Shown here: one piece after another, positions 25,878 to 32,505 of the stretch | Numbering within the stretch: position 1 is the first letter of the stretch | Layout: every line of letters begins with the position of its first letter | Assembly: GCA_039680175.1 (NCBI GenBank) | Contig: JBDKTO010000096.1 | Location: forward strand, 1-35,721 | Source of the DNA: Veillonellales bacterium | GTDB lineage: Bacteria; Bacillota; Negativicutes; JAAYSF01 | DNA length: 35,721 bases | Reading direction: 5' to 3' | The notes under the pieces: model-generated | The model's database searches: none | Seen by the model: the letters and a program-made list of their open reading frames with translations, nothing else | What the model was told of the DNA's origin: nothing | Made by a program: the position numbers and the translations under genes

Positions 25878-27398
25878 TTAGCTTTGCAAGCAAAGGGGTA
25901 CTCCCAATTCCTTTTTAAACCACTTGCTATGTTTCATCACTGCTTCTTCTTCGATGGCAGCCGATTCGCTGACGGTCAGCCGGAGGACGGCCTGCCCCTC
26001 TTCCAGAGTTGCTGTGACCGCTTGTACCAGCTGCATTTGGGTGATATCCAGACTTTCCGCCATGGCTAATAAGAGCGACAACTTACGCGCCGTCTCCCAG
26101 TCGGGTTTATCAAAGAATTCGCTGTACAGCTTATTGCGGATATATTTGCCGGAGGGGCCGTTATGCCAGCCGGCGATAACGGCAACCAACATTTGTTCCC
26201 GGTGGGTAAGGCCGAACAGGCGGGCATTTTCGATCAAGTAGGCGCTGTGCCGGGGGTGATCGTAGTAATTAATGGGGATACCGCAGTCGTGGAGCAGGGC
26301 GGCTACCTGCAGCAATGTCTTCTCTCGGGAATCCGTATTGAGTAAAGGCTGCCAGCCTTTCAGCAAGCTGGCGGCCAGTATGGCTACATGCGTCGCATGG
26401 GAGGCATCTACCTGATAAAAGGACAGCATGTTTCGGGTGCTGTGATCCAGTATGTCGGCAATGACCTCGTTCTGGCCCTGGCAGGAGCGATAATATTGCA
26501 GGAACATGCCTTCTCGGACGCCGCAGCCGCTAATGATGAGCTGAGAAGCTTGGGTATAATCAAACAAGCAGCTTACGATGCTCATACCGGGGAGAATAAT
26601 GTCGGCCCGCTCGCTGCTAAGACCGGGAGTTTTACGCCGCTGGCTCAAGGTGGTGGTAGACAGCTGCTTAAACAGTTCGTGAAAAGAGAGAGCACCCAGC
26701 CGGTAATTATGAACTTTGCCAAAAGGATAATTTTTGCACCGTTGATCCATTTTGGCGATATTCCGGGCGGTACCGCCTACACCAATGAGAGGCAGCGACA
26801 GACTTTTCAACCACTTTATCCGGGAAATTTGGTGGAAAATAAAATCACGCAATTCGTTCAACCGGCTATCGCTGATTTTTTTTTGCAGTTCAAATTTTTC
26901 GGCGAGATTGACGGCGCCAAAGGGCAGACTTATGACTTTATCGGCATTGCGGCTGCGGATGAGAGTCAGCTCGGTACTGCCGCCTCCCAAGTCGAATAAC
27001 AAAGCATCGGTCACATCAAGGGTGTTGACTACACCAAGGAATCCCAGCTTAGCTTCGGCTTCGCCGCTGATCATTCGCAGGGGAATACCGGTTTCCTGCC
27101 GGGCGGTTTGAATAAATTCGCTGCCGTTTTTTGCGTTGCGCACGGCAGCGGTGGCGATGGCCATGATTTTATTGACGTTGAACAGCCGGATCATATGGGC
27201 GAACACCTGAAGCGTGGCGATAGCCCGTATCATGGCGGTAGGCTGCAGCAGACCGTCCTTGCTCATACCCTCGCTGAGCCGAACGGTTTCTTTTTGATTG
27301 TATACTAAATTATAGGCGCCGTTGGAGTAAGTGTGCATAATGATAAGACGGGCAGAATTGGATCCCAGGTCAATGATTGCGATACGTTCGGTGATAAT
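25878..27398 (-). CDS. ppx: Exopolyphosphatase / Ppx-GppA phosphatase with HD domain; non-canonical ATT start
   Basis: About 506 residues. The N-terminal ASKHA fold carries IAIIDLGSNSARLI (about 7-20), ATAAVRNAKNG, the catalytic-Glu block ISGEAEAKLGF, and DLGGGSTEL. A C-terminal HD-like domain has LLHDCGIPINYYDHPRHS and AGWH. It hydrolyses polyphosphate and possibly pppGpp. The first conventional start (ATG ending at 27338) would delete the essential DLGSNS loop. The frame stays open to a stop at 27426-27428, but the added codons contain no ATG, GTG or TTG. An ATT at 27398-27396, 6 bases after AGG within AAAGGCAGGTG, is the best start; CTG at 27401 and ATC at 27395 are alternatives. It is divergent from the second ppx-like gene and ppk. 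Confidence 0.85.
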   Translation of the reverse strand: MITERIAIIDLGSNSARLIIMHTYSNGAYNLVYNQKETVRLSEGMSKDGLLQPTAMIRAIATLQVFAHMIRLFNVNKIMAIATAAVRNAKNGSEFIQTARQETGIPLRMISGEAEAKLGFLGVVNTLDVTDALLFDLGGGSTELTLIRSRNADKVISLPFGAVNLAEKFELQKKISDSRLNELRDFIFHQISRIKWLKSLSLPLIGVGGTARNIAKMDQRCKNYPFGKVHNYRLGALSFHELFKQLSTTTLSQRRKTPGLSSERADIILPGMSIVSCLFDYTQASQLIISGCGVREGMFLQYYRSCQGQNEVIADILDHSTRNMLSFYQVDASHATHVAILAASLLKGWQPLLNTDSREKTLLQVAALLHDCGIPINYYDHPRHSAYLIENARLFGLTHREQMLVAVIAGWHNGPSGKYIRNKLYSEFFDKPDWETARKLSLLLAMAESLDITQMQLVQAVTATLEEGQAVLRLTVSESAAIEEEAVMKHSKWFKKELGVPLCLQS

Positions 27399-27542
27399 CA
27401 GACACCTGCCTTTCTTTTCACTTTCTTATTCGCTGTTTTTAAAGAAATCCTTTTTCAACGACAAAAATTTACAAAATGTTAATATATCGGCAGGGGGATT
27501 TTTATCTTCCGGCAACGAAAGTTTCCCTGAGAGGTGGGATGT

Positions 27543-29096
27543 GTGTTGGGTAAAACGTCACCTAATCGGTTCGCTGCCATTCATGTAGGATCCGAGCAGG
27601 TCAGCGTTCACATTGTTGAATATACTACAATTCAGGATATTAAAGTTGTTGAAATGGCCAGCCGCCATGTGGCTTTGGGGGAAGAGACCTTTAAGACGGG
27701 CCGTATCAGCTTTGCGGCGGTGGGAGAAATCTGCGAACTTTTGAAGGGATACCGGCGGATGTTTGCCGAACATGGGGTTCGGGACTATCGTTTGGTTGCC
27801 ACTACCGCTATTCGCGAAGCGGAAAACCAACAATATATTATCGATCAGATTCAGGTAAAAACCGGGTTCATAGTGGAAGTATGCGATATGCCCCAGGAAA
27901 TCTTCATTAAATATGCGGCGCTGTTTAAAACCGTTCAGGACAGAAATTTGCTGGAAGCAGAAAACGCTATTTTGTTTGTGGATATTTCTTCCGGTGGGTT
28001 GGGTATTACTTTGTATAAAGACGGAGAATTAAAATATCAGCAGAACATTCATATTGGCGTGCTTCGCATCAAAGAAGGCTTTGCCCAATACCAACGGGAC
28101 TCGGCTCATTTTCAGCAGGCGCTGGCGGAATATATCTATAGTGTTATCGAGCCGGTGCAACAGGCGCTAAACAAGCAGGATATCCGGTATCTGGTTCTTT
28201 CCGGCACGGAGACCAGACTGCTGCTGACGATGCTGGGACAGGAAAATCCGGGGAAGTTATCTCTGGTTAGTCTGGCAGATTTTTATAAATTATATGATCA
28301 GGTTAAATTGTTAAATTTGCCTCAAATCGTACAGAACTTTGGATTTTCCGAGCAAAAGGCGGAGATGGTGTTACCTACCATCATATTGTACAAGCAAATT
28401 TTAAACCTGACTACGGTAGGCCAAATTCTGATTCCCGACACTCAGTTGATTGACGGAATTACGCTGTTGCATATTGGAGAGAAAACAAAGCAAGAATGGT
28501 TGCTGGCCCTGGAGAATCAGACGTTGAGCCTGGCCCGGGGCATCGGCTGCAAATATCAGTATGATCCCAGCCATGCGGCAAGTGTGGAAAAATTATCCCT
28601 CAGCCTGTTCGATCGCCTTACCCGCATTCATGGTCTGGGGAAACGGGAACGGTTATTGCTACAGGCGGCCGCTATTTTACATGATATCGGTAAATTTGTA
28701 AGTCTGCGCAGCCATTATTTTTATTCTTACCGGTTGATCCGGTCATCGGATATTTTGGGATTTTCCGAAGCGGGAAAAAACATTATGGCGAATATCGCCT
28801 TATATCACTCCAAAGGAGTTCCGGCTAACACCGATCCCAATTTGCAGGGCTTAACCCCCAAACAGCGAGTAATTATTGCCAAACTGGCGGCAATTATTCG
28901 CCTGGCCGATGCCTTGGACCGTACCCATCGTCAAAAGATCAACAGTTATGAGATCGCTCTTAAGGGCGATGAACTATTCATTACGGTTACCACGCAGGAG
29001 GATTATTCCCTGGAAGAGTGGACTTTTCTAGACAAAGCCACTTTTTTTGAAGATGTATTTGGCATTGCCGCGATACTAAGAAGACGGGCAGGATGA
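27543..29096 (+). CDS. Degenerate Ppx/GppA-like protein with HD domain
   Basis: About 517 residues with the same layout as the divergent ppx: an N-terminal ASKHA domain and a C-terminal HD domain with AAILHDIGKFVS and HSKGVP. Active-site motifs of the first domain have decayed: the DLGSNS loop reads HVGSEQ, the GGGS loop reads DISSGGLGIT, and the catalytic-Glu segment reads CDMPQEIFIKYAAL. The HD motif is intact. It may be a polyphosphate- or nucleotide-binding regulator or an HD hydrolase, rather than an exopolyphosphatase. Start: GTG 27543, 6 bases after AGAGGTG; TTG 27546 is equally possible. It ends 4 bases before ppk, so the two are co-translated. Confidence 0.82.
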   Translation: MLGKTSPNRFAAIHVGSEQVSVHIVEYTTIQDIKVVEMASRHVALGEETFKTGRISFAAVGEICELLKGYRRMFAEHGVRDYRLVATTAIREAENQQYIIDQIQVKTGFIVEVCDMPQEIFIKYAALFKTVQDRNLLEAENAILFVDISSGGLGITLYKDGELKYQQNIHIGVLRIKEGFAQYQRDSAHFQQALAEYIYSVIEPVQQALNKQDIRYLVLSGTETRLLLTMLGQENPGKLSLVSLADFYKLYDQVKLLNLPQIVQNFGFSEQKAEMVLPTIILYKQILNLTTVGQILIPDTQLIDGITLLHIGEKTKQEWLLALENQTLSLARGIGCKYQYDPSHAASVEKLSLSLFDRLTRIHGLGKRERLLLQAAAILHDIGKFVSLRSHYFYSYRLIRSSDILGFSEAGKNIMANIALYHSKGVPANTDPNLQGLTPKQRVIIAKLAAIIRLADALDRTHRQKINSYEIALKGDELFITVTTQEDYSLEEWTFLDKATFFEDVFGIAAILRRRAG

Positions 29097-31199: not shown

Positions 31200-31245
31200 G
31201 CTATGAGCTATGAGCTATGAGCTATGAGCTATGAGCTATGAGCTA
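31200..31245. repeat. 7-bp tandem repeat, 6.6 copies of GCTATGA
   Basis: Six exact copies of GCTATGA from 31200 to 31241, then GCTA. It is in the short gap between the ppk1 stop (31192-31194) and the stop of the convergent DUF441 gene. Such a perfect short repeat is prone to slipped-strand length change. It is outside both reading frames. Confidence 0.97.
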
Positions 31246-31840: not shown

Positions 31841-32128
31841 ATGGGAGATATATTCCGGGTAGCCGTTCATTACGAGGAAGATAACGGCTATATTGAATAC
31901 AATGCAGTCAACAAAAATATCCGGGTAGAACTGGCCGATGAGACGAAACGCCGTGAAGTCGAAGCTTATTTGGCAGAACCTCATGTTATGTCGGTTCCTC
32001 AGCATACGCTATTGGATTTTCATGATGTAACCGTTGCGGCCAATCAAGATGTAGAAAGCTTTAAATTAGCCGTAACTCGTATCTGGGAAAAGCTAGGCGT
32101 CCATGTTGATTGGAGCCGCCCTATTTAA
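31841..32128 (+). CDS. Small conserved-looking protein, 95 residues, unknown
   Basis: I do not recognise a family. It is a soluble 95-residue protein with strand-rich character at the start (FRVAVHYEEDNGYIEYNAV), a charged middle, and a helix near the C-terminus (DVESFKLAVTRIWEKLGVHV). It has its own promoter, an AGGCAGGTG ribosome site about 10 bases upstream, and a clear terminator, so it is a real single-gene unit. It could be a small regulatory or binding protein. Confidence 0.75.
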   Translation: MGDIFRVAVHYEEDNGYIEYNAVNKNIRVELADETKRREVEAYLAEPHVMSVPQHTLLDFHDVTVAANQDVESFKLAVTRIWEKLGVHVDWSRPI

Positions 32129-32197: not shown

Positions 32198-32317
32198 TTA
32201 TCCACAAAGTTATTCACAAAATACCCTTAAATGTGGATAACTTAAATGTGGATAGGTGGATAAGTAGGGAAAACCAGCGATTTGCAAGATAAATTTCTGT
32301 CGACAGTGTGTGGATAA
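32198..32317. other. Cluster of DnaA boxes
   Basis: Within 120 bases lie four perfect TTATNCACA boxes: TTATCCACA at 32198-32206 (+), TTATTCACA at 32210-32218 (+), and TGTGGATAA at 32232-32240 and 32309-32317 (-). One-mismatch boxes are at 32247-32255 (-) and 32255-32263 (-), and a weaker one lies at 32321-32329. The two + boxes face the - boxes. The surroundings are AT-rich. It precedes tRNA-Arg; no dnaA, dnaN or rpmH is present. Confidence 0.85.
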
Positions 32318-32364
32318 TTTTGTGGAAACAAATTTTGACAAAAACAGCAGGCGAATTGCATAAC

Positions 32365-32393
32365 TTGACTTTGAGAAAATATTGTGGTAAGAT
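32365..32393 (+). promoter_or_regulatory. Promoter of tRNA-Arg
   Basis: TTGACT (32365-32370), 17-base spacer, TAAGAT (32388-32393), 36 bases before the tRNA. A second TTGACA at 32335-32340 has no good -10. DnaA boxes lie just upstream. Confidence 0.7.
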
Positions 32394-32428: not shown

Positions 32429-32505
32429 GGCTCCGTAGCTCAGCTGGATAGAGCGTTTGACTACGAATCAAAAGGTCGTGGGTTCGAATCCCCCCGGGGT
32501 CACCA
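32429..32505 (+). tRNA. tRNA-Arg (anticodon ACG)
   Basis: Cloverleaf visible: acceptor 32429-32435 with 32495-32501 (two G-U pairs), D arm GCTC...GAGC, anticodon stem TTTGA/TCAAA with loop CTACGAA (ACG at 32463-32465), T loop TTCGAAT, and encoded CCA at 32503-32505. The T stem GTGGG/CCCCC has one T-C mismatch. ACG is expected to be deaminated to ICG by TadA. Confidence 0.95.

Follow-up and report, generated by a model that had tools for sequence, protein, structure and literature searches.

A short, conserved DnaA-box element beside a tRNA-Arg gene in Negativicutes: a probable remote site for controlling the start of chromosome replication

What is the function of a dense group of DnaA boxes that lies between a small gene and a tRNA gene, away from dnaA? 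The question is raised by a contig of a Veillonellales bacterium, 35,721 nucleotides long and analysed over its whole length (here called the window), for which a preliminary description had offered three readings: a DnaA-titrating locus of the datA or DBC type, a regulated promoter for tRNA-Arg, or the chromosomal origin itself in an unusual setting. Remote sites for the control of DnaA have been characterised in detail in E. coli; the clusters of B. subtilis are, to our knowledge, known as groups of boxes without a defined architecture. Analysis of the window and of related genomes indicates that the short element probably serves to control, from a distance, the start of chromosome replication.

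The box cluster and its neighbours in the window

The cluster itself proved to be real, with four perfect boxes exactly where they had been placed; the near-perfect boxes are three and not two, as had been counted (Table 1). The region is AT-rich, as described, the first 140 bp having a GC content of 34%, and it lies away from dnaA, dnaN and rpmH, since dnaA is on another contig (C89, the window being C96). The 35.7-kb window holds 10 perfect TTWTNCACA boxes in all, four of them in the cluster, while shuffled sequences are expected to contain 3.4. In the whole genome (4.08 Mb) TTATNCACA occurs 158 times, versus 71 for its reversed control, and from the genome-wide density the chance that any one box has three more within 120 bp was computed as about 1e-8.

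Table 1. Coordinates of the element, its neighbours and related clusters; positions without a prefix refer to the window
Feature	Position	Strand	Remarks
95-aa protein gene, no known family	31841-32128	+	conserved upstream neighbour
DnaA box 1, TTATCCACA, core	32198-32206	+	perfect; offset 0 in relatives
DnaA box 2, TTATTCACA, core	32210-32218	+	perfect; 12 bp past box 1
Spacer, 13 bp	32219-32231		constant length; ends A-rich, centre C-rich
DnaA box 3, TTATCCACA on the minus strand, core	32232-32240	-	perfect; faces boxes 1 and 2
One-mismatch DnaA box, CTATCCACA	32247-32255	-	
One-mismatch DnaA box, TTATCCACC	32255-32263	-	
Distal DnaA box 4, TTATCCACA	32309-32317	-	perfect; offset +111
Distal DnaA box 5, GTTTCCACA	32321-32329	-	one mismatch; 12 bp past box 4
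Promoter-like TTGACT-N17-TAAGAT of tRNA-Arg	32365-32393	+	read from sequence
tRNA-Arg(ACG)	32429-32505	+	follows the core in 31 of 45 loci
Second core copies	L045:1501-1543, L048:1501-1543		
Cores outside the class	L136:1501-1543, L137:576-618, L138:1501-1543		
Second DnaA-box cluster of the same genome	C25:104398-104530 (L141:1199-1331)		directly downstream of tsaD/gcp

The boxes occupy the gap between a gene for a 95-aa protein and tRNA-Arg(ACG). The tRNA gene has a promoter-like sequence of its own, so that the boxes sit upstream of this promoter. The 95-aa protein, encoded in 313 of 380 Negativicutes genomes, carries a nearly invariant C-terminal VDWSRP motif and has no relative in Pfam, NCBIfam or PDB, and for this reason its identification as a known DnaA regulator was rejected. 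A known RNA element was likewise discarded, since Rfam gives the tRNA alone, all other matches being far under the gathering scores. Elsewhere in the window, a divergent pair of Ppx/GppA-type genes (25878-27338, minus strand; 27534-29096, plus strand) adjoins ppk, and a short tandem repeat with the unit GAGCTAT is found just past ppk (31200-31245).

Conservation and fixed geometry in the Negativicutes

The conservation of the cluster beside tRNA-Arg in relatives, which had been put forward as a check, is strongly borne out. Taking the 95-aa gene or tRNA-Arg as a neighbour to define a shared locus context, 45 loci were collected from 21 of the 35 families sampled, and their core geometry is nearly unchanged: a plus-strand box at 0, a second at +12, a minus-strand box at +34 and usually another minus-strand box near +110. 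Box 3 is at +34 in 44 of the 45 loci, and box 2 is found at +12 in the relatives although the search pattern did not require it. Between distant loci fetched by means of the 95-aa protein, the core boxes are 93% identical, a figure somewhat favoured by the definition of core-bearing loci (at most two mismatches), whereas the spacers and flanks reach 34%.

Searches that started from the boxes gave a concordant picture. Of the 380 genomes of the class, 51 contain the pattern TTATCCACA-N25-TGTGGATAA, most of them a single time, and none contains its reversed control. When the gap was left free between 10 and 40, the matches listed for families outside f2 and f20 had a gap of 25 (13 in the case of the inner pair), with few exceptions, such as a gap of 17, seen once in genome G084, and of 26 in family f17. 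A profile built on the core sequence alone matched 230 genomes at E <=0.01, many of them weakly. In the open papers searched, no DnaA-box element was found described for Negativicutes.

With the 95-aa protein as the sole bait, two other genomes of the order (protein identity 57-59%) were found to have the gene, the box cluster and tRNA-Arg(ACG) in the same order. Of all 29 loci of relatives fetched by this protein, 15 are not from family f20, and 14 of these have the cluster within 1.5 kb; none of the 14 from f20 has it within this distance; in the fifteenth non-f20 locus (G083) it is 8.5 kb from the 95-aa gene and yet beside tRNA-Arg. The exact motif is seldom found in families f2, f33 and f35, which have small genomes and in which the DnaA-box system may have been lost or altered. 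Many f20 genomes, such as G240-G258, carry four to eight paired-box motifs each, mostly with other spacings, which suggests an expanded set of DnaA-box clusters in this family; the exact-pattern matches from f20 without box 2 (L059, L060, L066, L067, L071) were excluded as other clusters.

The distal box is less rigid in its position, and its shifts are regular. A strict minus-strand box is found at +107 to +113 in 27 of the 45 loci; with the range widened to +84 to +113, 37 loci from 19 families have one; by family, the offsets cluster near 88, 99 and 110, that is, one helical turn apart. The phasing at 10.5 bp gave R = 0.68, a value reached 0 times in 20,000 uniform draws, a significance that is optimistic because the families are related. 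Shifts by approximately whole helical turns are what a complex that is looped or co-planar would be expected to show.

Copies of the core are also found in other surroundings. Two genomes of two families (G081 and G084) have a second copy flanked by genes for a lysA-like decarboxylase and for a histidine kinase, and in three genomes of other Bacillota families a 0/12/34 core has a coiled-coil gene on one side and a LysM-type gene on the other.

Position relative to oriC and proposed role

In 13 genomes of relatives, belonging to five families, the element is 104-408 kb from dnaA, equal to 2-11% of the genome, some of the genome lengths being rounded and not all genomes closed; the genome of the window is a draft of 121 contigs. 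The second core copy of G084 is 211 kb from dnaA on the opposite side. The proximity to oriC may partly reflect inherited gene order.

On these grounds we consider it moderately probable that the element is a cis-acting, oriC-proximal DnaA-binding control site, which sequesters DnaA in the manner of the B. subtilis DBCs. DnaA would assemble on boxes 1-3, with the tandem pair, 12 bp apart, facing the single opposed box, and the distal boxes, some 110 bp off and in helical phase, may join this assembly, so that DnaA would be sequestered on core and distal boxes together. A site in this position would be replicated soon after initiation, its binding capacity for DnaA would double early, and the consequent lowering of free DnaA, probably in the ATP form, at oriC would prevent premature re-initiation. 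We infer binding by DnaA, its sequestration, an effect on initiation timing and a nucleotide preference of the element as the most likely interpretation.

Among the three readings first offered, the titrating locus is the best supported, by the invariant class-wide geometry, the oriC-proximal location wherever it was measured and the second cluster after tsaD/gcp; in the arrangement of its boxes, the core is closer to E. coli DARS, which the preliminary description had not considered, than to datA. Simple titration would not require a fixed three-box geometry, which hints at a role of a more specific kind, in nucleotide exchange or hydrolysis. It can be proposed, tentatively, that the Negativicutes possess an ancient, geometry-locked site for switching the nucleotide of DnaA, an analogue of DARS or datA that works without an IHF pair.

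Alternative readings and comparison with known systems

A DARS-like function is a rather doubtful alternative: ADP-DnaA would interact head to head on the opposed boxes, release ADP and be recharged with ATP, and initiation would be promoted instead of restrained. The cores of E. coli DARS1 and DARS2, as read from MG1655 and in agreement with PMC5742627, have boxes at 0(+)/+14(-)/+26(-), and the Negativicutes core, read on the other strand, has them at 0(+)/+22(-)/+34(-). The two designs share three boxes in the same order of orientation, box I being opposed to a tandem pair II-III with a step of 12 bp, and a geometry so strictly kept suggests that DnaA assembles on it in a specific way. However, the start-to-start step of the opposed pair I-II is 22 bp in the window and in every relative, 8 bp more than the 14 bp of both E. 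coli cores; the element is near oriC, unlike DARS1 and DARS2; and its own genome contains only one HU/IHF-family gene and thus no IHF heterodimer, which DARS2 needs.

Unlikely as the main explanation is the second reading of the preliminary description, here understood as a region through which DnaA would regulate the tRNA-Arg(ACG) promoter and so couple translation capacity to the replication cycle. A tRNA-Arg gene follows the core in the same orientation, at 160-510 bp, in 31 of the 45 loci (17 families); G083 keeps this association, its distant 95-aa gene notwithstanding, and in the window the boxes stop 35 bp short of the promoter-like -35 box. Against this, in families f25, f22 and f31 the core is kept while tRNA-Arg is mostly not adjacent, other copies lie beside the decarboxylase and kinase genes, and those of other Bacillota in yet another context; moreover, some 160 bp or more separate the core from the likely start site downstream, and the distance between core and tRNA varies. 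Since the core persists where tRNA-Arg is no longer adjacent, the element is more than a tRNA promoter and is independent of the tRNA-Arg gene, even if promoter regulation may be a secondary role.

A datA-like site, stimulating the hydrolysis of ATP by DnaA, appears quite improbable. Like the Negativicutes element, datA is an oriC-proximal DnaA-box cluster adjoining tRNA genes (PMC10950094), but these are upstream of datA and downstream of the element; moreover, the essential boxes of datA all point in one direction around an IHF site (PMC5742627), whereas core box 3 is opposed here, and the genome offers no IHF pair.

It is still less credible that the boxes are clustered by chance or are sites for some other protein: boxes and spacing are invariant in 21 families, the reversed control gave zero, and the box sequence equals the DnaA consensus and recurs at the oriC of the same genome. 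Finally, the third of the original readings, the chromosomal origin, or a second one, was rejected, since the element has the density of clustered boxes and the 12-bp steps of a bacterial oriC but neither dnaA and dnaN nor a skew switch: the real oriC is on contig C89, where box clusters flank dnaA and the gene order, as read from the sequence, is the usual rnpA-rpmH-dnaA-dnaN; in G305, a relative with a complete genome, the GC skew is negative on either side of the element (3965 kb, -0.10; 3982 kb, -0.04; 4010 kb, -0.14) and becomes positive only at dnaA; no skew change occurs along the window; and the distance from dnaA is variable.

Sequestration of the DBC type remains the preferred reading, and the clusters of B. 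subtilis are its closest model. These too are intergenic, lie outside oriC and are described as oriC-proximal, as is the element with its several boxes of the high-affinity type. One of the regions most strongly bound by DnaA in B. subtilis is downstream of gcp (gcp/ydiF; PMC4447404), and in the genome of the window, too, tsaD/gcp is directly followed by a cluster, a match which supports the placing of the window's cluster in a DBC-type system. The joint deletion of six DnaA-box clusters leads to early initiation in B. subtilis (PMC5295017, PMC13220808). Conversely, neither a fixed box geometry nor a tRNA-Arg locus was found reported for the B. subtilis clusters, and the locus of the window is absent from the top B. 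subtilis regions listed in PMC4447404.

The invariant spacing of the boxes throughout the class, in most cases at a single locus, provides a defined sequence for testing, and with it the question can be addressed of whether DnaA control in Bacillota relies on simple titration or on a nucleotide switch like those of DARS and datA. If the latter were true, remote, DNA-catalysed regulation of DnaA would exist in Bacillota too and would not be a proteobacterial speciality. The frequent presence of tRNA-Arg as a neighbour, for its part, recalls datA with its tRNA-Gly operon.
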